The notes beneath the pieces were generated by a model that was given only the letters and a program-made list of their open reading frames with translations, was not told where the DNA came from and ran no database searches. Position numbers and translations under genes: made by a program. Shown one piece after another: positions 1-41,948 of a stretch of 42,752 bases of DNA (its first letter is position 1; each line of letters starts with the position of its first letter). Source of the DNA: a virus; the IMG/VR virus record IMGVR_UViG_3300017719_000031, positions 1 to 42,752 of that record, one strand, 5' to 3'.

Positions 1-1470
1 AGTAAGATCACTCGTAAGAACATGGACGAGGAAAAGGATGATGAGATTGAAGGGCTTGACACAACCATTGACTGGAAGAACACGGATGACAACAGCTATG
101 ACGGTGAAAAGCTTTTACTTCTTGTACATGACGAGAGTGGTAAGTGGTTGAAGCCAAATAATATTCAGACTAACTGGCGTGTAACTAAGACATGTCTAAG
201 ACTGGGTAGTAAGATTATAGGTAAGTGTATGATGGGATCCACATCCAACGCACTCTCAAAGGGTGGTGAGCAGTTCAAGAGATTATACATGGATAGCGAT
301 CCATCCGTAAGGTCTGCAAACGGACAGACAAGGAGTGGGTTGTATTCATTGTTTATACCGATGGAGTGGAATTATGAGGGCTATATCGATCAGTATGGAT
401 GGCCTGTGTTTGAGGATCCATCTAAGCCAGTTGTAGGTGTAGATGGCGAGATGATAGATGACGGTGTTATAACGTATTGGAATAATGAGGTTGAGGCACT
501 TAAGTCAGATCCAGATGCATTGAACGAGTACTACAGGCAGTTTCCTAGGACTGAATCTCACGCATTTAGGGATGAGTCTAGACAGTCTATATTTAACCTC
601 ACAAAGATATATCAGCAGATCGATTACAACGACTCATTGATAAAGGACAGAGTTTTAACACGAGGATACTTTCATTGGAAGAATGGAGAGAAGGATACAA
701 CGGTTATATGGACCCCTGACAAAAAAGGCAGGTTTGTTGTATCATGGGTTCCGAGCTTTGAGCATAGAAATAATGTTATAAACAGAGGTGGTGTTAAGTA
801 TCCTGGAAACGAACACATGGGATCCTTTGGATGTGACCCGTATGATATATCTGGTGTTGTTGGAGGTAGTGGATCTAACGGTGCACTGCACGGTCTTACT
901 AAGTTTCATATGGAAGACGCTCCGTCTAATGAGTTCTTTCTTGAATACATAGCCAGACCAAAAACGGCAGAGATATTCTTTGAGGATGTACTCATGGCGT
1001 GTGTATTTTATGGTATGCCTATACTTGCGGAAAACAACAAGGCTAGACTTCTTTACCATTTTAAGAACAGAGGATACAGAGGATTTTCAATGAACAGGCC
1101 AGACAAGAACAAGAAGAGGCTATCTAAGACAGAATTAGAGCTTGGGGGTATACCTAACACCAGCGAGGATGTAAAACAAGCTCACGCATCAGCTATTGAA
1201 TCCTACATAGAACAGTACGTAGGGTTTGACTCTGAGGGTACATATAGAGATATGGGTAATATAGGTAGTATGTATCTCACTAGAACTCTTGAAGACTGGG
1301 CAAAGTTTGAGATAAATAACAGAACAAAATACGATGCCTCTATTAGCTCAGGTCTTGCCATAATGGCAAATAAGAAGTATATTTCTAATATACAGAAAAA
1401 AGAATCAAAAATAAGTATTAAATTTGTAAAATACGATAATCGTGGTAATAGAAGCGAAATAATAAAATAA
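1..1470 (+). CDS. terL: Terminase large subunit, 5'-truncated by window edge
   Basis: This is the DNA-packaging motor ATPase/nuclease, cut at its N-terminus. Frame 1 is open from base 1, so the methionine at base 22 is probably internal and the Walker A part lies outside the window. The visible part starts near the Walker B region (LLLVHDES, acidic pair at 130-135) and a motif III-like stretch (GSTSN, about 235-249). An RNase H-like nuclease domain follows, with GCDPYD (first acidic residue at 835) and AENNK near 1027-1041, and a later helix rich in acidic residues (EDVKQAHASAIESYIEQ). The layout matches TerL proteins of crAss-like and related Bacteroidota phages. Its TAA stop overlaps the next ATG by one base, so it is translationally linked to the portal gene. 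I am sure of the family; the exact lineage is inference. Confidence 0.9.
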   Translation, partial: SKITRKNMDEEKDDEIEGLDTTIDWKNTDDNSYDGEKLLLLVHDESGKWLKPNNIQTNWRVTKTCLRLGSKIIGKCMMGSTSNALSKGGEQFKRLYMDSDPSVRSANGQTRSGLYSLFIPMEWNYEGYIDQYGWPVFEDPSKPVVGVDGEMIDDGVITYWNNEVEALKSDPDALNEYYRQFPRTESHAFRDESRQSIFNLTKIYQQIDYNDSLIKDRVLTRGYFHWKNGEKDTTVIWTPDKKGRFVVSWVPSFEHRNNVINRGGVKYPGNEHMGSFGCDPYDISGVVGGSGSNGALHGLTKFHMEDAPSNEFFLEYIARPKTAEIFFEDVLMACVFYGMPILAENNKARLLYHFKNRGYRGFSMNRPDKNKKRLSKTELELGGIPNTSEDVKQAHASAIESYIEQYVGFDSEGTYRDMGNIGSMYLTRTLEDWAKFEINNRTKYDASISSGLAIMANKKYISNIQKKESKISIKFVKYDNRGNRSEIIK

Positions 1471-20490: not shown

Positions 20491-23400
20491 ATGGCTGAAG
20501 ACAATCCGATAGAAGGCTTGGATCCAAATCAATCGGCATTCGAGCCGATGTTGGATATGATGAATCAAGAGACACCAGAGGACCTAAGCAGGACCACAAC
20601 GACAACGACTCTCTATATCTCTGGAGATCAGACACAGATAGATCAGCCTAGGGTTAGTACAACTACAACTATGGCTCCAGTGGAGACTTTGGATATAGTG
20701 TCACAGTTTAGACAGTCTAATCCAGAGGTCAAGCTTGGCGATGTAAACAAGGTAATTCCTAATGCAAGCTATGAGGAGAGAATGCAACTTCTTTTTGATT
20801 ACCCAGATCAGTTCGGTGCAGACATAGAGTACAATAATAAGATCAACAGCTATGTCACACAGTTAAAAGATCAGGGATATAAAGACGATCAAATACTTTC
20901 ATACCTAGAGCAACAGAAGGAGGGTAAAAAGTCAGATCTGATGACCAACTTTCCAGACCTTTTTGATGTAAAGTCTATAAAGAGAAAGGACAATATAATT
21001 AAGGCTCTAGAGAGCGACAAGATTTCATACAGCAAACTATTAAAGTTTGGATCTGAGTCTAAGTTAAAGAATGAATATCCTGAGTTTGCTAACCTTATAG
21101 ATCAGAAGAAGAAGAACGAGAAGATTCAGAAAGAGATAAAGGCTAAAAATAAGAAGATAGATGCTAATATTGAGGCAGAAAAACAAGCAATAGAAAGACA
21201 GTTAGAGACTGGTAAAAACTTTATAGGTCAGGACATGTCTCCTATAGATCAAGAAGCTGCTAGAAAAAGACTCAGAGAAATTGAAGGGGAGCAGACGCTG
21301 GCTGACCTTGATGCAGGTGATCCATTTCAGGGAGACACGTCAAGGGCGGATATAGGAAAAATTTCATACAAGCGAAAGCCTGTCACAGGGTTTGAGTTTG
21401 AAAGAATAAATGAGTTCAATGTAGAACCTATAGTCAAGGATTACAGGTTTGTTGACCAGGATCAGGTAAAACAAGAGTTAGAGCTACTTAACCAGTTGAA
21501 CATAAATATTAGAGCCACAGGAGGTAAATCCCTTAGTGACGAGCAGATAAGAGAGGTATATGTAGACGGAACAAAGCCGTTTAATGAGAACTACAAGGAC
21601 TATGATGATAAGCTGTGGAAGACCGTCTCTGGTATTGTATCTACGCAGCCTGTCGTGGATCTAAATGATGAGTTCTTTGAGAGACATGATACCACAAGGG
21701 AGGAGTTCATAAATAAAAGAAAGCTTATACTATCAAGCGGACTCTTTAACACTCAAAAATTAGGAGATACGTACTACACTGAGGAGGAGTTTCAGGCTAT
21801 GTATAATAGGGCCTCTGAAAAATTAATCAATAAGTATGGATCCACTATAGGTACATATGAAAAAATTACAGGGACAAATCTTAGAGAGAACCCTGAGCAG
21901 TTTTATGACGAGGCGAGAAAGAGTAGTTCTTTATACATGTCAGACATAGATGAAGATATAGTGATAGGAGACTCTGAACAGACATCTAAAAACCTAAGGG
22001 AAAGATTTGGGTTTCTTCCTTACGGATCAAGAGATGAGTCACAGAATTATTTGGAGACAGAGGGATTTAGATTTAGCTATGACGGGGACAACCTGGTTAT
22101 ACAGTCCACCATAACACCAGAAGGTAAAAACACTCCAGAGTTACTGAATGGTATAGAGATAAACATGAATGGATCTGATCCAAGTGCAAAGATCAAAAAC
22201 TTCATGTCTAAAGCTATAGTTACCGACGAAATCAGAGACGTTATAAATGAGTACTCAAGAGGAGAGGGCAGGTTTCAGGAAGAGTTTGACAATCCAATGA
22301 GGGCATCTATAGACTTTAGCAACTATATACTTTCAAAGCCTTATGTGTTTGGAGATGCAAATGGTTTTGCCACAGATGGATATGGCCAAGGATTTTTATT
22401 TGGCCTTATACCTATGGGGCCCGATAATAAGTCAAAGTTCATGAGAAATATGTCTGTGATAAACACTCAGGTAAATGCACTTAAGGCGAAGGATCCTATC
22501 TCTAACCAGTATCTTATAAATAACTTAAACAAAAATATTCAATACGCACAGTATGTAGAAGACCAAAAGGCTCCAGAGTTAACCAGTCTAACTCTTGCCG
22601 CTGCTGCTGGACTTACTGAGACAATATCAGGTATAACTGAGGGTGTTGTAGACTTAATAATAGACATCCCATTTGCTCCTGTATCTAACACCCTGTCAGA
22701 GGATGAGGTTAACATGCTAAAAGAAAGTGGGCTTGAGGAGTATCAGATTTTAGATATACAGAACAAGCGTATAAAGGATGAGGTTGAGTACGGTATAGAC
22801 GAGTGGATAAATAACACGACAGCGGTTACAGACAAGTCTATAGCAGACGCAGGACTTACCTATGAATTAATTAAGACGATGATTCACAGCATCAGCACTG
22901 GTGCTATCGTTGGATTTAATCCATCACTTGTTCCTGTCGCATTCGGACTTCAAACCACAGCAAGGGTAGAGAACGAGCTAAAAGACAGCGGTCTTAGTAA
23001 CTTTGAGAAGAGAGTTATATCTTGGCCTATGGCCACGTTTGAGGGTATACTTGAAAACTTTGGTCTTCAGACTGCACTATCTCCAGGCAAGTCAATGCTT
23101 TTTAAATGGGTTGCAAATAAAGCCCTAAAAGGATTACCTAAAAATGCAAGTCTTCACGCAATAGAGGCGAGCATGAAGTACACCATGAAGGGACTTGGTA
23201 CAAGGACAATGCTAGGAATACTTGAGGGTGGTTCTTTTGAGGCATTAACGGAGGTAGGTCAAGAGGCTGTAGAATTTACAGAAAAAAATACTGTAAACAT
23301 GCTCCTAGGTAAGGACGTGTTTAAGAACATGCCCGACATTACGACGGAGAAAGGAGCTAATCAGTTTTTAAATCAGCTTGGCAAGGCTGCACTATTAGGT

Positions 23401-26400
23401 GGATTATCTGGTGGTGGTATATCTGCAATTGGCGGGACAACTAACCTTCTTGTAAATGGGTTTAAGTTAAAGGGATTAAATAAATCATTTGAGAATCAGT
23501 ACGATGTAATAACCAGCGAGGAAGGTAGAGCTATTGCTTTATCACAGATAAACTTAGCCTACCAATCTAAGCAGATAACTAAGGAGGAGGCCAATGCAAG
23601 AATAAAGGCAATGAATGATGCCTATCCATTGATGATGGAGATACCTGCCGAACTGTCTTCAGGTCAGAAGAGACAGGCATATGATTTAATGCTAGAGAGA
23701 AAGGCATTAGAGGCAGAGGTAAAAGACAAGGACAAGAACCTGGTCGTCAAGCAGACGGAGAGGATCGCAGAAATAAATAATCAGTTACAACAAATAAGCA
23801 AGACAGATGCCGTTCAAGAGCAAGAAACAAAGGAGGAAGTGCTACCAGATGAACAGTCCGAAATGGGACTGCAAGATGTGGGACAAGGAGACACCCAAGG
23901 GGAAGAAGCTTCCAAAGTACAGCAAGAGTTAGATTTACAAGAGGTTACAGTTACAGGTAAAAAACCTACAGAAGTACAGCAAGAACAATTAGTAGAATCA
24001 GTAGATGATCAAGGAAGAAGTGCTAAACCAGGAGCAAGATTGTTCAATGATCCTAATCCAGAGACGTCAGATATATCTGCTAAGTATAAAAAAGAAAAGG
24101 GTATAGAAACAACTGCTGGTGAAAAGATAACTGAGCTTGACACTAACAAATCTATGGAAATAGCTGATGCTTATGAAGCTATGGAAAACAATCCTAATGA
24201 TCCAGAAGTAAAAGAAGCATACGAATCTCTTGCTAAGGAAACTATAGATCAGTATAAAGCTATGACTGATGCTGGATATGAGATTGAGATTTACGAGGGC
24301 AAAGGAGAGCCATACGCTAATTCTCAAGAAATGATAGATGATCTTATTAATAATAAGCACATGTATATTTTTTCTACAGAACAAGGTTATGGAGAAGCTG
24401 GAATAACAGATCAGCAGCGTCAAGAAAATGCTATGCTTGCAGAGACTGAGTTCGTGGATAAAAATGGTAAGCCTCTGTTAATAAATGATTTATTTAGAGG
24501 GGTACATGATTTCTTTGGACATTCAGAAAGAGGTAATGGTTTTGGAGCTAAAGGAGAGGAGAACGCATGGGATGTTCATGCTAGAATGTTTACCGATAAA
24601 GCAAGAAGAGCAATGACAGCTGAGACAAGAGGTCAAAATTCTTGGGTAAACTTTGGTCCTCAAATGAGAGATAGCAACGGTAATCTTTTAAAGAAAGGAG
24701 ATCCTGGACACAAGAGTGCTAGAGAAAGAGATTTTGCTCCACAAAAAATAGGTCTGTTGCCAGAGCAGTATTCCGAAATAACAGATACCCCCACTACTGA
24801 GGTTACTAAAGAGGTGGTAGAAGATATAACTCCTGAGGTTGCAGAAAATATAAAAAACATAGAGAAGCAGGTTGATAATGCTAAAAAAGCTATATCTAAA
24901 ATAATACCTGGCGTTGAGATTATCACTCACAAGGACGAGGATTCATACAGGAAGGCCACTGGAGAGACAGATAGCAAGGAGCAGACATCTCGTGGTGAGT
25001 ATAACCCTAAGACCAAGAAGATACATATAAACCTATCTAAGGCGAACAACAGGACTGTGGCTCACGAGGTCTTCCATGCTATACTTCTGGATAAGGTTAA
25101 GACTAACAAAGCGACTAGGGATTTTACAGAGAGGATGATCAAGTCTCTATTAAAGAGTGACCAACTTGAAAATATTAAGATAACATATAGAGGTGAAGAG
25201 ATCACACTTGCTGAATACCTTGAGAAGTTTGCCTCAAACTATGACGAAAACATACAGAGCGAAGAGAAGCTGGCTGAACTTGTAGGTATCCTCGCAGAGA
25301 ATTACGGTCAGTTAAGTAAGACGAACAAGAGCCTGATCAAAAGATTTTTAGATCGATTGGCCAAGATGTTTGGTCTAAAGCCATTCACAGACAATGAGGT
25401 GGTTGATGTTCTTAACGCTATAGCTGGAAAGGTTGCTTTCGGTCAGGAGATCAGTGAAATAGACGTAAAAGTAATATCAGAAGGTGCATCTACATTCATA
25501 GCAGAGCCAACAACAATTGAACCTAGAAAATCTATAGGCAAGAAGGTTGTAGCATCTAACAAGCCATCAGAATTATCTTTTGTAACTAAAAAAGATCTTA
25601 TAGATATTGAGAGTCTTGTAAAAGAAATAGCAGATAAAAAACAAAAGGTTTGGTTTTGGGTAGCAGATCAGATGGGTAGAGGAATGTATTCTGATGTAGT
25701 TGTTGATGGTCAACATTTCTTAGACGCTGGACCAAGTTATGCTTTAGATCCTGTAAATAAAAGCAAAGACATAATATGGGCAACAGGTAAAGATCAATCT
25801 GAAATAGAAAAACTAATAGATAAATCTGATTTTATATTTATTATTAGCGGATCTCCTATTAGCTCAAAACTTTTTAATAAAAAAAATATAGATATACTTG
25901 AGAAAAGGATTGGGGATTATAGTAAGTTTAAAAAAGATTTATTGAAATCAAAACCAACAAAACCAATAAAAGATATACTTAACAAACATAATAGTTGGAA
26001 AAGCTTAAAAGAATCTCCAGATAGAAAAAAACTATTAATAGCATTTGAAAATCAAAAAGATAAAAACACTGAAACTAAAAAGGTGTTAGGTAAATACAAT
26101 GCCTTTATAGATTTTAATTCATTAAGAGATGGATTTTATAAAGAGAATGATTTTAAAATGAATGAAGTTATGTTGGTGTTAAAACCAACAGCTTATGGAG
26201 GTAAGTCTAATCACTCTACATATGAAAATGATATATTAGGTGAGGTTATTGGAGTACCTGATACTAAGGTAGATTCTTTTGATCTAATGCCTGAAGCTGT
26301 GAGAAAAAAATATTCAGAAACTTTAGGGGCAAGTCAAAAGGCACAAGTCGTTGCACCTTACGGAATAGGTGTTAAAGAGATAGAATCCCCAGCCAAGCGT

Positions 26401-29400
26401 AAGCAGATTGTAATAGGTGAGAACGCAAATCTAAAACAGAACGTCAAGGACTTTCTTTTACAGGCAAATGAGATGGAATCTAAGGGTCAGTCTCGTGAAG
26501 AAATAAGACTACTCACAGGATGGGAAAGAGGTGCAGATAACAAGTGGGGTTATGAGCTTAATGATGTTATAGATATAGATGTAAAAAATATCAAAACAGA
26601 TAAAGTTTATAACATAGAAGAAATCGTTAGTTTCCCAAGCCTTTTTGATGCATATGGTGATGCAAAAAAATTAAAAATAAAATTTATTAATAATTCATTA
26701 AAGTCTGGAATGGCAGCATACCTCCCTAAAAGGGGATTGATAGAGGTTAATCTTTCTAAGATAGGCCTTTCAGAATACATAGAGGGTATGATGGCACAGT
26801 CACGCCTCAGCAAGGATGATAAAGTTTTAAATGCTGCTGTATTAGACGCTAGATTGTTAAAGAAAGAAAACGAATTAGAAAGCAAAAATGTCAGAAGAAA
26901 TAGTGATACATGGATAAAAGAAACCGAAAGCGTGTATCCTTCTTCTCAAAGAATTATTAACAAGAAATTAATAGACGAATATAAAAATAAAAACAATGTA
27001 TCAGCTATTGAATACTTTAATGATATAAAATCCATTCAATCCTTAATTGATAAAAGAACAGATATAGATACAGCTAAAGGACTCGATGAATTAAATTCAA
27101 AGGTGCTACATGAAATCCAACATGCAGTATCAGATCTTGCAGGATTCCCTATGGGAGGAAGTGCTCAAACGATAACTAAAACTTTTACAAGCAAAGAAAA
27201 AAACGAATACAACGATATAGTAAAAAATATAATTGAAACCAAAAAATTATTAGAAGAAGGTAAGGCTACTCAAAAGCAGCTAGATGATGCAAAGCATGAG
27301 GAGGCAGAGTATAGGTATAAAAAATATGATGAGCTTGCTGGAGAGACTATGTCAAGAAATGTAGAGAAAAGAAGAAAGTTAAGTCCTCAGGAAAGAAGAG
27401 AGAAGACTCTTGAGAGTACCATGGATGTCGACATAAAAGATCAGAAACTACTGTATGAAGACGAAAAAAATATATCTATAAAAGAAAAAAAGGTAGAGAG
27501 TAAGCAGAAGCCTAAAGAGAAGAAAGGATTGCTTGGCATATTTAGAAAGCGTAAGCAGAAGGACGACGGGCCTGTAGAGCCAAAGATTGACATCAGAAAT
27601 CTGAAGAAGAAGTCTGACAAGAAGATAAAGGAGACAAACAAAGGTAAGGGACCTATACTTAGAAGACTAAGAAGAGGATTGTTCGACAGACAGAACGATA
27701 TAAAGAGAGTCATAAAGGACTTTGTTCCTAACCCTAAGAAGGTGAGTAAGATCATAAACAGGATAGTAACAAAGGCTGGTGCGTCTGGATATGCAAACGA
27801 ACTGTTTACACAGCAGGACAAAAAAATATTTGGAAAGCTAAAGGCAGACCAGATAGAAAACCTTGAACTCATAATATACGCAAGACGTATTGTTGCGATC
27901 AATGAAAATAGACGTGATAGGGGAATGAATCCATATAAAGGTATGGATGGACTTGACGAGCAGGCTGCACTTCAGAACTTAGAGAAGTTTGAGCAGGATC
28001 TAGGTAAGAAAGAGTTTGATGCCCTATCAGAAAGAGCAGACGAATACTTCGAGGCATTCAAGAACAATCTTAAGATGCTCAGGGATTCTGGACGTATAAC
28101 AGAGGAGATTTACGAAAACCTTAAGGATGTGGAGTACTCTCCGATAAAGACTCTAAAGTATATCATACCTCAGGACACCATGACTGACGAGGATATAAAC
28201 AACGCTGTGTCTACGCTTGGTGTAAACAAGAAGGATATAATGAAGCTCTCAGACATGAACGAGAATGAGATCCTATTCGACGCAAGGTTTCTTCTTATGA
28301 TGAACACTAATATAGTTGTAAGGAGATCATTTGAAAATGAAATGCTGAATGAGTTTGCTCAGGGATATGAATCCATAGACAAGGCAGGCAAGGAAGCTCT
28401 ATCAGACTTTATAATTGAGGGGCCTGTAAAGAAGGTACCCCCTGGTTTCAGAAAGGTTGAATACTTTCAGGATGGTGTAAAGAAGGAGATGGTCATGAAG
28501 GAAGACTATGCAAGACAGCTTTTAGACATCAAGAATCAAAATAATTTTCTAAAAGGCCTTGGAAAGATAAGTGGTGCAAATATATTAAGGTTCTTTGCGA
28601 CGGGTGGTAACCCATTGTTTATCGTTGGTAACACTGCGGTTGACTTTGCAAACATAGCATTCTTTTCAGACGTATACTCATCCATAAAGCCACTGGCAAC
28701 AGTACAGCTGGCATATGATTTCGTAAAAAACTTTTTAAGAAAAACTGGAAATACAAACAATTACAACAAAATTAAGATGGAGTTTATGGAGCACGGAGGT
28801 GCTATGGACTTCCTGTCTACAGACGGTCTTAGAATGGTTCAGGACATGAAGCTTAAGAACAGAATACTTAACAAGGCACAGAAGGGGTTGGCTGCATACG
28901 CTAGGTTTATGTCTTACGTTGGAGAGACTGGTGAGATGTCATTTAGACTGGCTGTCTATGAAAGGGTTAAGAAAGCAGAGATTAAGAAGTTTGAAAAGGA
29001 GAATGATAGATCTCCAAACCAGCAGGAGATGGAGGATATAATGTTCGAGGCAGCTGCACAGTCTAGAGAGACTATTGACTTCTCTCAAGGAGGTACATGG
29101 GTTAAGCAGATGGATCAGGCACTGCCATACTTCAACGCTGCAATGCAGGGACTTAGAAGACCGTTAGACTTTGCAAGAAAAAATCCAGTAGGCTTTACAT
29201 CCAATGTGGTACAGTATGCGGTAATGGCCGCAGGTATGACTGCGACTTCTTTAGGAACATTACTTAGAGCGATAGGAGACGATGAGGAGGAAAAGAAAAA
29301 AGTTCAAGACACATTAGATTCAGTATCTATGTACGAAAAGGCAAACTATCATATAATATTTACAGGTAACAAGGATAAGGACGGCAACTATCAGTACGTG

Positions 29401-30498
29401 AGAATTAAAAAACTTCCCCTCCTTTCTATACTTGGAACAGCGACAGAGCAGTACACAACAAAGTATCTTTTAAAGTCTCAAGGTATTGATTACAAGACAG
29501 ATGATAAAGCTATAAAAAAGTCCATAGAGATGTCTGCACCATTAGACGTACTCGGACCTGTTATGGGGGACGAGTCGGTAGGTCAGGCTCTTGGAGGTAT
29601 TGTAAAAAGAAATCCACTTGCTTCAGCTTGGTTGACATACACATACAATGAGGATACATTTACAGGAGATAAGGTTTTTTATGAGCCTAAAGATAAAAAG
29701 ATAAAGCCGTATGCAGAAGGCCTTTACGATAACAGAGTAAATGATATATACAAGGTGGTTGCACCTGCACTTGACATGTCTCCAAAGAGAGCTCAGGCTG
29801 CCGTAGAGAAAATTGTAACAAGTGAAAGCACAAACCCAAGTATATCTATATTTTATGCTCTTACAAACGGATTATTTGATACAGAGGCAGATGCATTTAA
29901 AGAAAATTCTGATACGTTTGATAATGGTATGGGACATTTCCTAGATGTGGTTAGTAAAAAAATGGTAAGGCATACGAATCCAAACCTCTTGAGATACAAA
30001 AACAAAGATAGATTAGAAGATCTTGAGAAAAGTATAGATACAGATGCATATCTAACCAAGATAAAAATAAAAAAAGATATCAATAAAAATGTAGACTCAG
30101 AGGTACTTAGAAATGGAGACTACAATAGTAAAGAATATAAAAAAGAATTAAAAAAACTTGAAGATATACTTGACAAGAACGATGTCAATACAAAGGACAG
30201 ACCTTACTACGGTTCATACACCGTTAGAAAAGATTTAAAAGGTCAGGAGATGTTTAAGGAAATGACAGATATAATTTACGAAAGATCCCCTAAGATGATG
30301 GCTGCAAGACTATACTCAAGGTATGGAGACAGCTTAGATGATCAAGAATTAAAAGAACTATCTCAGTCATTTAAGCTTGCAAAAGTAGGAAACAAAATAC
30401 TCAAAGAGGGATACCAGATATACTACAAGAAAAACTATCTTAAGAAATCTCAAGAAGAGATAGATAAGTTCGAGAAAACATTTGGTAAGATAAGGTAA
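20491..30498 (+). CDS. Giant polyvalent virion/ejection protein with two zincin-like motifs
   Basis: This 3335-residue protein fills a quarter of the window. The N-terminus has two short poly-Thr tracts (about residues 35-60) and long charged helices. Hydrophobic patches at about 697-730, 790-826 and 966-991 could insert into a membrane. An acidic linker (about 1110-1190) leads to a cassette of separate domains. One carries VHDFFGHSERGNGFG (about 1338-1352), one a zinc-protease motif HEVFH (1525-1529), one WFWVADQMGRG and GPSYALDP (about 1715-1755), and one HEIQHAVSDLAGFPMGGSA (2207 on), which resembles large polyvalent protein domain LPD23. A C-terminal domain has LPYFNAAMQGLRRP (about 2876-2889), typical of LPD38. 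It is probably injected with DNA, delivering enzymes early. The stop adjoins the convergent operon's stop. Confidence 0.75.
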   Translation: MAEDNPIEGLDPNQSAFEPMLDMMNQETPEDLSRTTTTTTLYISGDQTQIDQPRVSTTTTMAPVETLDIVSQFRQSNPEVKLGDVNKVIPNASYEERMQLLFDYPDQFGADIEYNNKINSYVTQLKDQGYKDDQILSYLEQQKEGKKSDLMTNFPDLFDVKSIKRKDNIIKALESDKISYSKLLKFGSESKLKNEYPEFANLIDQKKKNEKIQKEIKAKNKKIDANIEAEKQAIERQLETGKNFIGQDMSPIDQEAARKRLREIEGEQTLADLDAGDPFQGDTSRADIGKISYKRKPVTGFEFERINEFNVEPIVKDYRFVDQDQVKQELELLNQLNINIRATGGKSLSDEQIREVYVDGTKPFNENYKDYDDKLWKTVSGIVSTQPVVDLNDEFFERHDTTREEFINKRKLILSSGLFNTQKLGDTYYTEEEFQAMYNRASEKLINKYGSTIGTYEKITGTNLRENPEQFYDEARKSSSLYMSDIDEDIVIGDSEQTSKNLRERFGFLPYGSRDESQNYLETEGFRFSYDGDNLVIQSTITPEGKNTPELLNGIEINMNGSDPSAKIKNFMSKAIVTDEIRDVINEYSRGEGRFQEEFDNPMRASIDFSNYILSKPYVFGDANGFATDGYGQGFLFGLIPMGPDNKSKFMRNMSVINTQVNALKAKDPISNQYLINNLNKNIQYAQYVEDQKAPELTSLTLAAAAGLTETISGITEGVVDLIIDIPFAPVSNTLSEDEVNMLKESGLEEYQILDIQNKRIKDEVEYGIDEWINNTTAVTDKSIADAGLTYELIKTMIHSISTGAIVGFNPSLVPVAFGLQTTARVENELKDSGLSNFEKRVISWPMATFEGILENFGLQTALSPGKSMLFKWVANKALKGLPKNASLHAIEASMKYTMKGLGTRTMLGILEGGSFEALTEVGQEAVEFTEKNTVNMLLGKDVFKNMPDITTEKGANQFLNQLGKAALLGGLSGGGISAIGGTTNLLVNGFKLKGLNKSFENQYDVITSEEGRAIALSQINLAYQSKQITKEEANARIKAMNDAYPLMMEIPAELSSGQKRQAYDLMLERKALEAEVKDKDKNLVVKQTERIAEINNQLQQISKTDAVQEQETKEEVLPDEQSEMGLQDVGQGDTQGEEASKVQQELDLQEVTVTGKKPTEVQQEQLVESVDDQGRSAKPGARLFNDPNPETSDISAKYKKEKGIETTAGEKITELDTNKSMEIADAYEAMENNPNDPEVKEAYESLAKETIDQYKAMTDAGYEIEIYEGKGEPYANSQEMIDDLINNKHMYIFSTEQGYGEAGITDQQRQENAMLAETEFVDKNGKPLLINDLFRGVHDFFGHSERGNGFGAKGEENAWDVHARMFTDKARRAMTAETRGQNSWVNFGPQMRDSNGNLLKKGDPGHKSARERDFAPQKIGLLPEQYSEITDTPTTEVTKEVVEDITPEVAENIKNIEKQVDNAKKAISKIIPGVEIITHKDEDSYRKATGETDSKEQTSRGEYNPKTKKIHINLSKANNRTVAHEVFHAILLDKVKTNKATRDFTERMIKSLLKSDQLENIKITYRGEEITLAEYLEKFASNYDENIQSEEKLAELVGILAENYGQLSKTNKSLIKRFLDRLAKMFGLKPFTDNEVVDVLNAIAGKVAFGQEISEIDVKVISEGASTFIAEPTTIEPRKSIGKKVVASNKPSELSFVTKKDLIDIESLVKEIADKKQKVWFWVADQMGRGMYSDVVVDGQHFLDAGPSYALDPVNKSKDIIWATGKDQSEIEKLIDKSDFIFIISGSPISSKLFNKKNIDILEKRIGDYSKFKKDLLKSKPTKPIKDILNKHNSWKSLKESPDRKKLLIAFENQKDKNTETKKVLGKYNAFIDFNSLRDGFYKENDFKMNEVMLVLKPTAYGGKSNHSTYENDILGEVIGVPDTKVDSFDLMPEAVRKKYSETLGASQKAQVVAPYGIGVKEIESPAKRKQIVIGENANLKQNVKDFLLQANEMESKGQSREEIRLLTGWERGADNKWGYELNDVIDIDVKNIKTDKVYNIEEIVSFPSLFDAYGDAKKLKIKFINNSLKSGMAAYLPKRGLIEVNLSKIGLSEYIEGMMAQSRLSKDDKVLNAAVLDARLLKKENELESKNVRRNSDTWIKETESVYPSSQRIINKKLIDEYKNKNNVSAIEYFNDIKSIQSLIDKRTDIDTAKGLDELNSKVLHEIQHAVSDLAGFPMGGSAQTITKTFTSKEKNEYNDIVKNIIETKKLLEEGKATQKQLDDAKHEEAEYRYKKYDELAGETMSRNVEKRRKLSPQERREKTLESTMDVDIKDQKLLYEDEKNISIKEKKVESKQKPKEKKGLLGIFRKRKQKDDGPVEPKIDIRNLKKKSDKKIKETNKGKGPILRRLRRGLFDRQNDIKRVIKDFVPNPKKVSKIINRIVTKAGASGYANELFTQQDKKIFGKLKADQIENLELIIYARRIVAINENRRDRGMNPYKGMDGLDEQAALQNLEKFEQDLGKKEFDALSERADEYFEAFKNNLKMLRDSGRITEEIYENLKDVEYSPIKTLKYIIPQDTMTDEDINNAVSTLGVNKKDIMKLSDMNENEILFDARFLLMMNTNIVVRRSFENEMLNEFAQGYESIDKAGKEALSDFIIEGPVKKVPPGFRKVEYFQDGVKKEMVMKEDYARQLLDIKNQNNFLKGLGKISGANILRFFATGGNPLFIVGNTAVDFANIAFFSDVYSSIKPLATVQLAYDFVKNFLRKTGNTNNYNKIKMEFMEHGGAMDFLSTDGLRMVQDMKLKNRILNKAQKGLAAYARFMSYVGETGEMSFRLAVYERVKKAEIKKFEKENDRSPNQQEMEDIMFEAAAQSRETIDFSQGGTWVKQMDQALPYFNAAMQGLRRPLDFARKNPVGFTSNVVQYAVMAAGMTATSLGTLLRAIGDDEEEKKKVQDTLDSVSMYEKANYHIIFTGNKDKDGNYQYVRIKKLPLLSILGTATEQYTTKYLLKSQGIDYKTDDKAIKKSIEMSAPLDVLGPVMGDESVGQALGGIVKRNPLASAWLTYTYNEDTFTGDKVFYEPKDKKIKPYAEGLYDNRVNDIYKVVAPALDMSPKRAQAAVEKIVTSESTNPSISIFYALTNGLFDTEADAFKENSDTFDNGMGHFLDVVSKKMVRHTNPNLLRYKNKDRLEDLEKSIDTDAYLTKIKIKKDINKNVDSEVLRNGDYNSKEYKKELKKLEDILDKNDVNTKDRPYYGSYTVRKDLKGQEMFKEMTDIIYERSPKMMAARLYSRYGDSLDDQELKELSQSFKLAKVGNKILKEGYQIYYKKNYLKKSQEEIDKFEKTFGKIR
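20593..20670 (+). repeat. Two short ACN (poly-Thr) tracts in giant protein N-terminus
   Basis: Six ACN codons at 20593-20610 and four at 20659-20670 encode threonine runs. Together with the tracts in the modular tail gene they give five similar microsatellites in two late genes. Confidence 0.8.
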
Positions 30499-31778: not shown

Positions 31779-32027
31779 TTATATGTCGTAGCAAAGCCCT
31801 GACAGGTATTTCTTGTTACACATTGAGTACTTAACAGTGTACTTGTGAATATCTTCGCTTTTAATAAACCTACTTATAAACCTTTCATTTAGAGGATTTA
31901 ATGAGTCGTCAAGTGCCAAAGGTATCTTCGTTATTGTCTTATTTATTTTACGAAGACGGGACCTCATAGATATAGGTCTAGCCTCTAAAGTTATGTCTAC
32001 ACAATAGACCCCTCTAGTATCTTTCAT
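31779..32027 (-). CDS. Small basic protein, 82 residues, unknown
   Basis: I do not recognise this protein. It begins MKDTRGVYCVDITLEARPIS, is basic in the first half (RSRLRKINKTITK), and has a helical second half with LNERFISRFIKSEDIHKYT and a cysteine near the end (MCNKKYLSGLCYDI). It overlaps the upstream DnaA-like gene by 14 bases, consistent with one operon. A nucleic acid-binding helper role is possible from charge and context only. Confidence 0.6.
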   Translation of the reverse strand: MKDTRGVYCVDITLEARPISMRSRLRKINKTITKIPLALDDSLNPLNERFISRFIKSEDIHKYTVKYSMCNKKYLSGLCYDI

Positions 32028-32382
32028 TTTGAATCCTCCTCTTTATAACGTTTAGCATGCTCATATCATTGCATCTTATTATATCGTCCATGATGTCTCT
32101 CTTTTCAGGTATGTACTTTTCATAGTAATCTAGAAAAACCTTGTAGTCCTGAACGTCTTCCAGAAACAAAGGATCATCGATTTCACTCCAATGCAGATAG
32201 TTTTTTATTGAGTGTATTACAGTAGCATGATTACGATTAAAAAGCTTTCCTATATAGTTAAGTGGGTACTTCTGCTCTCGCAGTATGGCACATAAAAACG
32301 CTCTCTTATGTATCTTCTCTCTACCCCTGTCTTTGGTAGCTAGATTATCCCTCTCGATGACGTGCAAAATTTTATCTATCAT
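32014..32382 (-). CDS. DnaA domain IV-like DNA-binding protein
   Basis: This 122-residue protein matches the C-terminal DNA-binding domain of the replication initiator DnaA. A helix with KRAFLCAILREQKYPLNYIG leads to the signature turn-helix NRNHATVIHSIKNYL (about residues 49-63), the counterpart of the DnaA-box-contacting motif (xDHxTVxxAxxKI). The AAA+ part of DnaA is absent. The remaining C-terminal half is charged, with YDYYEKYIPEKRDIMDD-like acidic/basic helices. It is flanked by nuclease and helicase genes in the replication block. It may recognise DnaA-box-like sites in the phage origin or compete with host DnaA. Confidence 0.75.
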   Translation of the reverse strand: MIDKILHVIERDNLATKDRGREKIHKRAFLCAILREQKYPLNYIGKLFNRNHATVIHSIKNYLHWSEIDDPLFLEDVQDYKVFLDYYEKYIPEKRDIMDDIIRCNDMSMLNVIKRRIQNERY

Positions 32383-34448: not shown

Positions 34449-36803
34449 TTAAAAGTTTAGTTTCACCTGTTCAGGCTCAGTTTCTATAAATTCTATCATC
34501 TTTCCAGCAGCATTCCTGGTTATGATCGGCTTGGTGTCGTACTTAAACTTACCAAAGCTATCAAGCCACTTGTAGAACTTGCTATGAGAAAGCTTGAACT
34601 TTCCATACGGTCCATAGTCTGGATACTCCTCAGTAAAGTTGTTATAAAGGTCCATGCCCATACTTGCAGACCCCTTGTTTGTGTAGTAGTTGTCCTTTCC
34701 GTCAGCCCATTCCCAGAAGTCTGAGTTTGTTTCTGCAATAAAGTTCCTTACCTTAAGGTTCTTGAACTCGCATACAACAAGACCACTCTTCAGGTATAGT
34801 TGAAGGTTATCGATCATGTAGTTGTCAAACTTTGACCATTCAGAATCTGTCCACTCGCTGAATAACATGTGGCCAAAGTCACTCTCAGGCGTGAAGCTTT
34901 TAGTATAGTACTGCTTGAACTCCAGGTCCCACTTACGTCTCTCAAAGCTATTTCCAGCACCCTTGATCGCATAGTTTGTGGTTATAACAATCTTTGGAGA
35001 GTACTCAAAAGGTATGTGTATCTCGTCTTTGTTCTTCTTCTCAAGGGTAATACCCTCTGTGATTACAGAGAATAGTCTCTCGAAATCAAAATTCTTTGCG
35101 ACGTCATCAAACACAAGGGTCTGTGTATCTACCTGTACCCTCTGGTACGGGAAAGATTTTTGAAATGAAAATCCCTTACCATCAATTATAACCATCTTCT
35201 TAATGTGACTTATTGACTTGACAAAGATACCCTTACCAGTGCCACCTTCAGGATGGTCCGATATAATCTCGTCATTGAGTATCACGGCAGGGCAGTAGCT
35301 TGCTGGCTTGTGTGAATGCATAAGGTATCCAAGAGTACTCTCCATAGATCTTGTACTATCAGATCTGTCTCCAGATATATTCTTAATGAAGTACCTGAAC
35401 TCTGAATCCTTAAAGTCAGACTTTATGAAGTCCCTGTCTATCTTCTGCTTCTCCCATACATGACCTTTTAGGTTCTTATAAGAAATGGTTTCTACGCTAT
35501 CCCTTGTGACCTTTACGGCACAATTTAAGTAGTAAAGATAAGCCTCGTCAGTGTTGTCCACCATGAATTCTGGCTCTATCCTTGAGACATAATTTAAAAA
35601 TGTCTCCTGAAAAAACTTTGTATTGAGTGCAAAGAAGTTGTATACCGACATATCGTCGATACCTAGAAGGAAGTCAAGTACAAAATCCTTTATCATCTCC
35701 TCGTTCACGTCAGATATGGTGTTGTCAATCACCCTGACGAATACAAAGTTATTACTACCTACTGGGTAGTACTTGTAGAAACCATTGTCCTGCAAGTATA
35801 GTCTAAACAGATGAGGTACAAGATCAATCTTGCCCTTGCTGTTCTTTATCCAAAACTCGTTGAAGTCTACAGTCTTAGCGACCTCGTCGACATCGACGTC
35901 CTTGTTACTGTCCTTTATCTCACCAAGAGGGACGCCCATCTTTATATTATTGACTATCTCTGACGTCTTATCAATGTCCTCATAGAACTTAGTGTTGTGT
36001 CCAGACATGTTCTTGTAAGCACTTCGTACTATTGCCATGATCTCTGAAGACTTTTCGCCAGTTGAGTCGTATGAGTTCAGCGTGGTGAATGCCTCGTCCT
36101 GATTGATTCCAAACTCATTCAGTGCGGATGCCAGGATAAAAAGGTTGTTGTTTTTTTGACCCTGAACCATACCATACTTCTTGTCCCACCATAGCGATAG
36201 CCTGCGTATTATTTCATTAGAGTCAGAGATCTTTATGGTTGCCTTTGACTTTGTCACAAACTCTGTCTCGTTCTCCATGTCCTTCCATACCGAAGAAAGT
36301 TCATTTACATATAAATCAGGATCGTAACTCTCGTAACATACCCTTGATATATTCTTGCATGAGGTATCGAACTCATCGCATGCATAGTACTTCTCCAGTG
36401 ACTTGAAGTACTTCTTATGATTCTTTGCATCCTTAGGTATACGTACCAGTGTCTTGATACCATCTCCAGATGGGGATGTGAATAGGCAGTACGTAAACTC
36501 GTCCTGCATCAGCTCCACCCTCTTTGAGTGTAGGTGCTGCTCGTCCCTAAAGCCATCGAAGTCAAGGCACATGATACCACTGTGATCTATGATAGAGCTG
36601 TCACGCCTATCTGAAAAGGTTCCAGAGAAGCAGATGGCAGGAAGCTGTTTTTTCAACTGATTCCTACCACCCTTATCTACCTCTAACCTAACCTTACCTA
36701 TTAACTCCTTCGAAGATCCGTCACGGATACGATCTATCGCCCTATCTATGTCTATATGGTAGGGTTTGTCTGTCTCGTTTATTGTCTTAAAGTATGTTAT
36801 CAT
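34449..36803 (-). CDS. Primase-helicase: BT4734/VirE-type N-terminus with SF3/D5-like helicase
   Basis: This 784-residue protein probably primes and unwinds phage DNA. The N-terminal part (about 40-180) matches the BT4734-like/VirE N-terminal domain seen in Bacteroidota mobile elements: AICFSGTF, IMCLDFDGF (acidic pair), FTSPSGDGIKTLVRI and CKNISRVCYESYDPDLYVN. A helical linker with a PriCT-like segment (about 195-250) follows. The C-terminal ATPase has Walker A PEGGTGKG (about 517-524), Walker B TLVFDDV (about 561-567) and a sensor strand KIVITTNY. These are the features of D5-type helicases. No separate primase or polymerase gene is visible, so this may be the phage's only replication initiator enzyme in the window. 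Confidence 0.85.
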   Translation of the reverse strand: MITYFKTINETDKPYHIDIDRAIDRIRDGSSKELIGKVRLEVDKGGRNQLKKQLPAICFSGTFSDRRDSSIIDHSGIMCLDFDGFRDEQHLHSKRVELMQDEFTYCLFTSPSGDGIKTLVRIPKDAKNHKKYFKSLEKYYACDEFDTSCKNISRVCYESYDPDLYVNELSSVWKDMENETEFVTKSKATIKISDSNEIIRRLSLWWDKKYGMVQGQKNNNLFILASALNEFGINQDEAFTTLNSYDSTGEKSSEIMAIVRSAYKNMSGHNTKFYEDIDKTSEIVNNIKMGVPLGEIKDSNKDVDVDEVAKTVDFNEFWIKNSKGKIDLVPHLFRLYLQDNGFYKYYPVGSNNFVFVRVIDNTISDVNEEMIKDFVLDFLLGIDDMSVYNFFALNTKFFQETFLNYVSRIEPEFMVDNTDEAYLYYLNCAVKVTRDSVETISYKNLKGHVWEKQKIDRDFIKSDFKDSEFRYFIKNISGDRSDSTRSMESTLGYLMHSHKPASYCPAVILNDEIISDHPEGGTGKGIFVKSISHIKKMVIIDGKGFSFQKSFPYQRVQVDTQTLVFDDVAKNFDFERLFSVITEGITLEKKNKDEIHIPFEYSPKIVITTNYAIKGAGNSFERRKWDLEFKQYYTKSFTPESDFGHMLFSEWTDSEWSKFDNYMIDNLQLYLKSGLVVCEFKNLKVRNFIAETNSDFWEWADGKDNYYTNKGSASMGMDLYNNFTEEYPDYGPYGKFKLSHSKFYKWLDSFGKFKYDTKPIITRNAAGKMIEFIETEPEQVKLNF

Positions 36804-37023: not shown

Positions 37024-37569
37024 CTATTTAAAAATATCTAACATCGAACTGTACTTATCGTTTATATGTTTTAAGGTAAACGACAATTCTTCCATAGAAT
37101 TTTTGTAAGAACGTGTATGTAAGGAGGATGTCGTAAGATCATCTGAGATTGTATTTAAAGAAGATGATATATCTTTAATTTTTTCAGACAAATCATTTAT
37201 AGATTCTTTTAAATTAATGACATCAATATCATTTAATTCATTTATAGAATTTATGTTACTTCCATTTGATTTCTGTAATAAATCATAAAGACCTACATCC
37301 TCAATTTCATCAACACCTTTACCTTCGGTGTCATCAAGCTCTGGGAAAACCCTAGACCAATCTTTATCCAAATGAACTGGTTCCATGACAGACATTACAA
37401 ATATTAATGCTTCTGTGCTTAAACCTACAATCAACATTTCAGAAGCAAATGGCCAGTGCATAATTTTAAATAATGCACCCATAATAACAACTGCTGCCCC
37501 TAATCCGTATATGTACTTCATGATATTTTTCCATGACTTACTTGCAAAAAAACTTTTAGTATTACTCAT
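37024..37569 (-). CDS. gldL: GldL homologue: type IX secretion / gliding motor subunit carried by the phage
   Basis: Within the first about 80 of 181 residues this is unmistakably GldL-like. The sequence runs YIYGLGAAVVIMGALFKIMH (first membrane helix), a short loop, MLIVGLSTEALIFVMSVMEP (second membrane helix) and DWSRVFPEL. Host GldL forms a pentamer around GldM in the inner membrane and converts proton flow into gliding and type IX secretion. Charged membrane residues important in GldL are kept here: Lys35 and His38 after helix one, Glu53 in helix two and Glu63 at its end. The rest (about 80-181) is a charged coiled coil with no match I recognise, and the protein is shorter than typical GldL. 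ATG at 37569 is preferred over one at 37599 because the latter lies in the terminator. Confidence 0.88.
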   Translation of the reverse strand: MSNTKSFFASKSWKNIMKYIYGLGAAVVIMGALFKIMHWPFASEMLIVGLSTEALIFVMSVMEPVHLDKDWSRVFPELDDTEGKGVDEIEDVGLYDLLQKSNGSNINSINELNDIDVINLKESINDLSEKIKDISSSLNTISDDLTTSSLHTRSYKNSMEELSFTLKHINDKYSSMLDIFK

Positions 37570-37588
37570 AATATTTAATTTAATTGTT

Positions 37589-37620
37589 AAAAAAAGCACC
37601 GACTACCATACAGTCGATGC
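37589..37620 (-). terminator. Intrinsic terminator just before gldL
   Basis: On the minus strand a nine-pair stem (GCATCGACT with AGTCGGTGC, one G-U pair) with a seven-base loop runs directly into seven T residues. It ends 20 bases upstream of the gldL start, after the DUF3127 gene. It either ends the upstream transcript or works as an attenuator controlling gldL. Confidence 0.88.
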
Positions 37621-37692: not shown

Positions 37693-38037
37693 TTAGAACG
37701 GAAGATCTCCGTCCTTATCTTCAGTTGTAACTGGCTGTGGGGATGGTTCAGAGGACCCATCTATTCTCCATGCCTCTAGTGTGTTGAAGTACTTAACCTC
37801 ACCACTTGGTGATGTCCACTCACGCCCTCTAAGATTAAACGATACCTCTACCTCTTGACCCTCTATCATAGAGTCCAAAAGTGTCGTCTTGTCCTGCACC
37901 GTCTGAAACGATATGGTTTGTGGATACTTCTCTGCCTGATCATTCAGTACAAATGTTCTCTTCTTAAACTTTTCGCTTACGTGTTCTGTGTCGAAGATCT
38001 TTTCCACGACTCCTTTCATTTTAAATTGATTACTCAT
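37693..38037 (-). CDS. DUF3127-family single-stranded DNA-binding-like protein
   Basis: This 114-residue protein matches the DUF3127 family of Bacteroidota. The characteristic sequence elements are KGVVEKIFDTEHVSEKFKKR, FVLNDQAEKYPQTISF, VQDKTTLLD, VEVSFNLRGREW, and KYFNTLEAWRI. The fold is expected to be an OB-type domain. The C-terminus is acidic and ends in DGDLPF, the same type of tip that SSB uses to recruit replication proteins. It lies directly after the PD-(D/E)XK nuclease gene with one intervening base and is led by a conserved A-rich leader. Use as the phage's SSB is likely. Confidence 0.85.
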   Translation of the reverse strand: MSNQFKMKGVVEKIFDTEHVSEKFKKRTFVLNDQAEKYPQTISFQTVQDKTTLLDSMIEGQEVEVSFNLRGREWTSPSGEVKYFNTLEAWRIDGSSEPSPQPVTTEDKDGDLPF

Positions 38038-41085: not shown

Positions 41086-41346
41086 CTATTTATTTATTTC
41101 ATCTTCGATTAATTCTCTCAACTCCTCGATGTTCACGTCGCCATCTCCGTCTACTTTATCTATAAAGGTAGGTCTCATATATGTCATGTGTCCGTAATGG
41201 TAGTCTGTCTCGTCAGTAAGTCCGTTGAATCGTACTGGGAACTGCTCTCGCCTTAGCTCCCTCTCTATCCCTACGTTGAAGTGTTCAGTACCTGATACGC
41301 ATACGCATATGTTTGCATCGTCTATGTAGTCTATGTCTATGTTCAT
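41086..41346 (-). CDS. Small acidic protein, 86 residues, unknown
   Basis: This gene heads the operon that continues to the left, directly after the repeat-rich intergenic region. The protein is acidic, with an N-terminal strand (MNIDIDYIDDANICVCVSG), a basic middle (RELRREQFPVRF), aromatic HYGHMTYMRPTF, and a C-terminal acidic helix (DVNIEELRELIEDEINK). Its ATG is preceded on the coding strand by three direct copies of a CCAACACAAA-like ten-base repeat, which may affect translation or transcription. Function is unknown. Confidence 0.6.
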   Translation of the reverse strand: MNIDIDYIDDANICVCVSGTEHFNVGIERELRREQFPVRFNGLTDETDYHYGHMTYMRPTFIDKVDGDGDVNIEELRELIEDEINK

Positions 41347-41376
41347 TTTGTGTTGGTTTGTGTTGGTTTGTGTTAA
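41347..41376 (-). repeat. Three tandem 10-base repeats upstream of operon start
   Basis: On the plus strand tttgtgttgg occurs twice in a row and then as tttgtgttaa. On the coding strand this gives (A/C)-rich repeats directly before the start codon at 41346. They may be a translation-enhancing leader or protein-binding iterons. Confidence 0.8.
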
Positions 41377-41509
41377 GAAATGTTGGTTTTTTTTTGGATT
41401 AACATCGCTGAAACCCTTGATATTACTATGTTTCTTTAGTGAAATGTTAGAATGTTAGTTTTTTTCCTTCTGTGAGAAAAAAATAAATAATATATATATA
41501 TATAGTACT

Positions 41510-41539
41510 ATTGTGGGGGATATATATTTTCCCCACAAT
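41510..41539. repeat. Inverted repeat ATTGTGGGG / CCCCACAAT
   Basis: Two perfect nine-base arms are separated by an AT-rich 12-base spacer, next to an (AT)n run. The arms contain TGTGG/CCACA, a partial match to a DnaA box (TTATNCACA). The hairpin lacks a T tract on either side and is therefore not a typical terminator. It may be an operator or origin element. Confidence 0.75.
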
Positions 41540-41603
41540 TTGTAATATTTCTAACATTCCAACATTCTTCCGTTCAATTGATTGATTTACAGACAGTTAG
41601 CCA

Positions 41604-41629
41604 ATGTTGGTCTGTTTTAAAACCAACAT
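41604..41629. repeat. Inverted repeat ATGTTGGT / ACCAACAT
   Basis: Eight-base perfect arms around a ten-base AT-rich spacer, each arm holding one copy of the AATGTTGG-type repeat of this interval. It looks like a protein-binding site for a dimer rather than a terminator. Confidence 0.7.
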
Positions 41630-41681
41630 GGCGTAACATTTTATCGGCTAATCGATTGATTGTCAGTCAGGTATGTTAACA

Positions 41682-41948
41682 TTACAGATGACCTCCATAT
41701 TTCTCTGATTCAATATCGTACCTTGTCTCTGATGGTTGATCTTCATTTGTCCAATCTTCACCTATACCCATACCGAATCCATATTCGTATTCCGATACTG
41801 ATATCTTGTTATATAGTCTGTCTACATATAGGTGTTCATTCTGCATCAGATAATCTGATACATCATCTAGTTCTATGTTGCTAGGTATCTCTATCTCTAC
41901 CTCTGATATCTTGTGGTATACTCGTCTTTCGCTTATTGTTACTTTCAT
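41682..41948 (-). CDS. Small acidic protein, 88 residues, unknown
   Basis: The protein has a two-strand N-terminal part (MKVTISERRVYHKISEVEIEI), similar in style to small acidic proteins widespread in phages, an acidic helix (NIELDDVSDYLMQNEHLY) and a C-terminal GFGMGIGEDWTNEDQPSE stretch. It is led by an A-rich leader (aaaaacaaatagat), and its stop lies at the edge of the repeat region. No enzymatic residue is recognised. Its position directly before the control region could fit a regulator but charge alone does not show it. Confidence 0.6.
   Translation of the reverse strand: MKVTISERRVYHKISEVEIEIPSNIELDDVSDYLMQNEHLYVDRLYNKISVSEYEYGFGMGIGEDWTNEDQPSETRYDIESEKYGGHL

Follow-up and report, generated by a model that had tools for sequence, protein, structure and literature searches.

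It is probable, on the strength of sequence comparison, that a region of 335 bp among the early genes of an uncultured marine phage, known from a metagenomic record, is a cis-acting origin at which an initiator encoded by the phage opens the DNA for theta-type replication. The region, here termed R1, lies in a window that comprises the whole stretch of DNA analysed, the 42,752 bases of IMG/VR virus record IMGVR_UViG_3300017719_000031. Four features favour the origin reading: a layout that is kept despite change of the motif, two copies with matched spelling in genomes of distant relatives, relocation of the element and an easily melted tract. The first-pass annotation had considered an origin bound by a phage initiator plausible and this is now the best-supported reading, although the DnaA-box-like palindrome and GC skew have both dropped out as pointers to it.

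The control region and its repeats

Up to 30498 the window carries late genes, which lie on the + strand; the early genes follow beyond that point, on the - strand. R1 (41347-41683) has no plausible gene and lies between the - strand ORFs 41086-41346 and 41682-41948, so that it is flanked by two early genes on the same strand, with no divergence between them. Its description as the longest gene-free interval holds for this truncated contig, but fuller relatives, which point to a full genome length of about 58 kb, have a non-coding region that is longer (R2, 535-559 bp or more) some 3.3 kb further upstream of R1, at the early/late divergence. R2 of three such relatives (L056, L053 and L058, that is G001, G002 and G003) is conserved and carries T-arm-like hairpins (GGTTCGATTCC), GTCA-type tandem repeats and TAnnTTTG promoter-like sites. 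Neither ARAGORN nor Rfam gave a match on R2 of the same three. A GC-skew profile did not single out R1, the minimum in G002 falling about 3.4 kb away, at the early/late divergence, and as the skew follows gene strand it was discarded as proof of an origin. Among the other genes of the window, a 191-residue early protein (37024-37599, - strand) matches the N-terminal domain of GldL, of the gliding motility/secretion motor (E 8e-29), and a 3335-residue late protein (20491-30498, + strand) has only a weak PHROG match and no NCBIfam match.

Read in the direction of the early genes, R1 consists of a LEFT motif pair, a palindrome with an AT tract, an inverted RIGHT pair, a middle element and the FAR repeats, after which comes the next gene with its start codon (Table 1). 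The core word TGTTRG occurs nine times in the 335 bp (six copies on the + strand and three on the - strand). An earlier count of about nine copies of AATGTTRG applies to this core, whereas the octamer itself has six copies in R1 and four in the rest of the window, against a mean of 0.06 and a maximum of two for R1 in 2000 dinucleotide shuffles. Three tandem 10-mers had been noted and were found, TTTGTGTTGG at 41347-41356 and again at 41357-41366 and then TTTGTGTTAA (8/10), as was the (AT)n tract, at 41490-41504. The claim of two perfect inverted repeats stood for one of them, with perfect 9-bp arms at 41510-41518 and 41531-41539, the other (41600-41632) being imperfect with one extra base. In L013, at about 4200, a 17-bp deletion takes one arm of this outer repeat and leaves the rest of the region intact. 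When 50-bp stretches are ordered by instability the AT tract ranks second in the window, first in G001, second in G002 and third in G003. R1 thus has several copies of a short word, as iteron-type theta origins do, and in G000-G003 an AT-rich unwinding tract (ranks 1-3) lies beside the words, as is also the case in such origins.

Table 1. Positions in the window of R1, its component features and the genes considered with it
Feature	Position	Strand	Remark
R1, whole control region, early-gene direction	41347..41683	-	75-94% identity to five other lineages with complete region
FAR repeats	41347..41386		TGTTRR cores every 10 bp, at 41351, 41361, 41371, 41381
Middle element TAGTAATATCAAGGGTTTCAG, about 20 bp	41408..41428	-	family-conserved; distant relatives have CTGATAATCANNNAGTTA-like stretches in this place, as judged by eye
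RIGHT tandem motif pair CTAACATTCTAACATT	41443..41458	+	41458-41443 in early-gene direction; inverted relative to LEFT
AT tract, candidate duplex-unwinding element	41478..41527		second least stable 50-bp stretch of window
Palindrome, 9-bp perfect arms ATTGTGGGG/CCCCACAAT	41510..41539		letters not conserved; lost in L019
LEFT tandem motif pair AATGTTGGAATGTTAG	41551..41566	-	one forward and one reverse pair per contig with whole region
Two direct repeats	41561..41673		41561-41599 and 41635-41673; 72% similar, at a distance of 74 bp
Outer imperfect inverted repeat GCCAATGTTGG..CCAACATGGC	41600..41632		one arm deleted in L013
Stand-alone DnaA-domain-IV-like protein, 122 residues, candidate initiator	32014..32382	-	Pfam Bac_DnaA_C, 4.2e-8
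Primase-helicase, 784 residues, likely helicase, other candidate binder	34449..36803	-	BT4734-like_N, PriCT_1, DUF5906
SSB-like protein (DUF3127)	37693..38037	-	array A between ssb and primase in distant relatives

Conservation in close relatives

The AATGTTRG array is conserved in relatives. Its tandem pair occurs once forward and once in reverse in all seven contigs that contain the whole region (G000, G001, G002, G003, G004, G005 and G008), one of the two matches carrying one mismatch in G001 and in G005, and the right half is retained in G006 and G007, contigs that begin inside the region. The pair was not matched in MW202828, nor in G009-G013, whose sequence examined does not show the region. 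Another match to the 18-base pattern, L047, looks like unrelated coding DNA and was excluded. The palindrome fared differently: the first-pass annotation had seen DnaA-box-like sequences in its TGTGG/CCACA halves, but this link fails because those letters change in relatives, and in L019 the palindrome is lost.

The identity of R1 is 75% with L019 and 88% with L021, which is higher than the 39-55% identity at fourfold sites of the primase, the exonuclease and g38781 in L019, L021 and L033. The neighbouring gene g41951 has a fourfold identity of 0.76-0.78, compared with 0.44-0.46 in the primase (L021 and L033), and local exchange is suggested by this high value. It is very improbable that R1 is instead some other cis-acting site, for packaging, recombination or partition; such a site would fit with the variable small genes that R1 borders and with the signs of local exchange in g41951, but the terminase gene (window 22-1470) is distant on the map and the arrays track replication genes and contain an unstable tract. 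A structured RNA was considered as well and dropped, since an RNAalifold analysis of six sequences gave an unfavourable covariation term (+3.42), with one pair changed on both sides, and Rfam gave no match in five sources. The lack of RNA covariation points to DNA sites and not to a structured RNA.

The same layout with other words

A primase-helicase profile search of viral contigs yielded 157 relatives, from which 80 loci were retained, and a scan of host genome contigs found no relative. In distant phages, whose primase-helicases are 48-62% identical, the layout is kept and the word is respelled: TGACGA in L078 and L079, TGTCAA in L076 and L077, GTGTCG in L084-L086, TGTCGA in L092, L108, L110 and L111, and TGTTGA in L093, L117 and L120. 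Examples of the numbers of left and right copies are 5/6 for TGACGA, 5/3 for TGTCAA and 2/6 for GTGTCG, and a FAR-type pair, with a spacing of 10-12 bp, is also found. The position of the array varies while the element persists, either before the primase, beside groEL or among small early genes, the last being the place of the single array of the window lineage. In many distant relatives the array lies between ssb and the primase start codon, downstream of a terminator-like hairpin.

A compound pattern made up of the left pair, a spacer, the right pair, a spacer and the far pair matched once each on the primase strand in 17 of 69 loci, a set that includes near-duplicate contigs and some ending short of the array. 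Five further matches lay on the opposite strand, which follows from the near symmetry of the layout. There were no matches in three passes over 1.05 Mb of shuffled sequence and none in six other phages (two covered only to base 50,000). A repeat-score scan gave mostly coding noise and a combined k-mer and unwinding scan was noisy for many of the 50% loci, the arrays of which were read by eye.

Two arrays in one genome

Two separate arrays of the same word are present in 11 of the 14 records at 48-51% primase identity, compared with one array in each of G000-G003 (the window lineage) and in G015. Array A is just upstream of the primase and array B, when the record is taken as a circle, is 8.4-11.6 kb off, where it adjoins a groEL-like gene at its 5' end. 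The latter is identified by Pfam Cpn60 in L051 (2366-3925, 3.4e-60) and by the annotation of MW202828, and in other records is a frame of 527-552 residues in the same place. Among the remaining three records G023 is without an array, and no more than weak copies were seen by eye in G018 and G027. Several records in this whole-record survey were covered to base 60,000 only, and G014 has no primase in the bases covered. A palindrome, TGTCGTTAACGACA, occurs at least twice around the early genes of MW202828 (L050: 8138 and 9006).

The spelling of arrays A and B matches better within a genome than between genomes (permutation, P 5e-5 for 11 genomes and 1e-4 for nine, the smaller set omitting G019 and G021 as near-copies of G020); array A of G028 and G031 and array B of G028 and W01 were set by hand before the test. 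None of 200 random sets of RACA sites attained the observed value. The primases of these two-array genomes are 62-79% identical, except for those of G019-G021 (95-96%). Matched spelling is the strongest evidence from sequence that points to one trans-acting binder, but gene conversion between the two arrays could be an alternative source of it.

Arrays placed in this way might be operators or promoters only, to which a regulator would bind in order to control the gene that follows (primase, groEL or the small early genes), with no role in initiation. Arrays do lie directly upstream of the primase and beside the groEL 5' end. The terminator-like hairpin that many relatives have downstream of ssb implies that the primase has a promoter in front of it, which array A may therefore also hold. 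The sequence TTG-N17-23-TAnnTTTG is the sigma-A promoter consensus of the Bacteroidota, and in five of nine genomes array B has on its left side a match directed toward groEL. However, in the sample scanned (nine two-array and four single-array records) the consensus is found in none of nine arrays A on the primase strand and in none of the four single-array records; it is absent from R1, and its two matches in 22 arrays compare with a shuffle mean of 1.3. Furthermore, R1 of the window lineage is inside a block of genes running in one direction, the orientation of the arrays is constant although the neighbouring genes differ, and a fixed geometry of about 190 bp, with inverted sites around a meltable tract, is more than a promoter needs. 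A role as operator alone, the chief rival to the origin reading, is on this evidence unlikely, though it keeps real weight, and one site can serve as both origin and promoter.

Candidate binding proteins

The DnaA domain IV-like protein that the first-pass annotation had recognised is indeed encoded by the window, its Pfam match lying above the family cutoff. NCBIfam DnaA matches it over this domain only (1.7e-5, far under the cutoff for whole DnaA) and phage proteins labelled 'DnaA C-terminal' match it at E 1e-8. Its AF2 model (pLDDT 87) has the fold of a DnaA DNA-binding domain, the best PDB match being 3pvp, that domain of Mycobacterium tuberculosis DnaA on box DNA (prob 1.00, E 0.13). Homologues are present in 20 of 22 family records scanned, the exceptions being G003, which is truncated, and G023, which is of full length and has neither the gene nor the array. 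Other records speak against such a role: L120 has an array and no DnaA-like gene was detected in its 17-kb locus, the 60 kb examined of G025 contains two arrays and a single DnaA-like gene, and P12024S and phi46:1 possess the gene and lack the array. Two DnaA-domain-IV-like paralogues, whose stop-to-stop frames have about 100 and 140-225 residues, were seen in G018-G022, G024, G026, G028, G029 and G031.

The primase-helicase, also predicted previously, was confirmed by its domains. By analogy with the alpha protein of phage P4, an enzyme of the same kind, it is possible, if doubtful, that the origin would be bound by the primase-helicase itself through its C-terminal region. Array A abuts the primase gene in many relatives and, across nine of the 11 genomes with two arrays (G025 and W01 being omitted), motif distance tracks primase distance with a Spearman coefficient of 0.70, compared with 0.19 and 0.44 for DnaA-like distance. 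However, primase N300 and C165 track motif distance equally (0.70 and 0.71), which may reflect shared ancestry, and the comparison of distance matrices was set aside as a means of naming the binder. Moreover, G023 has a primase that is 50% identical and yet no array, and the model of the C-terminal region, at pLDDT 43, is too low to judge a winged helix. A PDB sequence search with the primase gave no matches. The stand-alone DnaA-domain-IV-like protein is regarded as the more likely initiator, ahead of the primase-helicase.

If R1 is an origin, a phage-coded initiator would bind the copies of TGTYR/YRACA that flank the AT tract in opposite orientations and, once bound, would strain, distort and open the tract. 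The primase-helicase and the SSB-like protein would then be loaded on the opened strands and theta replication would begin.

Comparison with known origins

Theta origins of the iteron type, with a duplex-unwinding element, are known from phages and plasmids and, like R1, have short repeated words by an AT-rich meltable tract and are linked to replication genes. In the present arrays, unlike those origins, the words form pairs with a spacing of 8-9 bp, the pairs on the two sides of the tract are turned toward each other, there is a fixed middle element and the spelling is lineage-specific.

Satellite phage P4 has two such regions, ori and crr. The phages described here resemble it in having a primase-helicase and short words and, in distant relatives, two arrays kilobases apart. 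They differ in that the primase domain is BT4734-like (AEP-type) and not Toprim, a DnaA-IV-like protein is encoded as well, and the window lineage has one array. The winged-helix domain of P4 alpha is reported to bind origin repeats (PMC4234260), whereas the array words are only putative binding sites.

A likeness to bacterial oriC lies in the encoded DnaA-domain-IV fold, but the phage protein, unlike bacterial DnaA, is without an AAA+ domain. DnaA domain IV is described as binding 5'-TTATnCACA-3' by means of an HTH helix that enters the major groove and a basic loop that contacts the minor groove (PMC11511705). For the arrays the word is [A/T]T[C/T][G/A]ACA (WTYRACA), which would depart from the DnaA-box sequence ATCCACA chiefly at a single position. 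The canonical box TTATCCACA is not enriched, since 23 records contain eight matches to it and 26 to the reversed control, and none is present in R1, which in this respect is not oriC-like.

Implications

No description of these arrays was found in the titles and abstract openings of the literature searched, in which the origins of phages of this group with such a primase-helicase appear to be unmapped. An origin composed of repeats and an unwinding tract is of a known kind; it is the arrangement, the pairing and the respelling that look new. A phage collection contained no isolate of the group besides the metagenomic MW202828, and of its 20 matching records one spans 80% or more of the primase. 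Hosts among the Flavobacteriia are suggested by the names that related phages bear.

It is conceivable, and is put forward tentatively, that stand-alone DnaA-domain-IV proteins lacking an AAA+ motor are dedicated initiators across a widespread group of uncultured phages, each genome having one or two origins at which they read a DnaA-box-like word in respelled form; the spelling would drift with lineage and yet be matched within a genome. This raises the question of how DNA would be opened by an initiator without an AAA+ domain. The array family provides a concrete and testable origin signature and a route to the origins of metagenomic phages, and paired sites whose spelling drifts together could serve to identify the initiator and the residues that determine its specificity.
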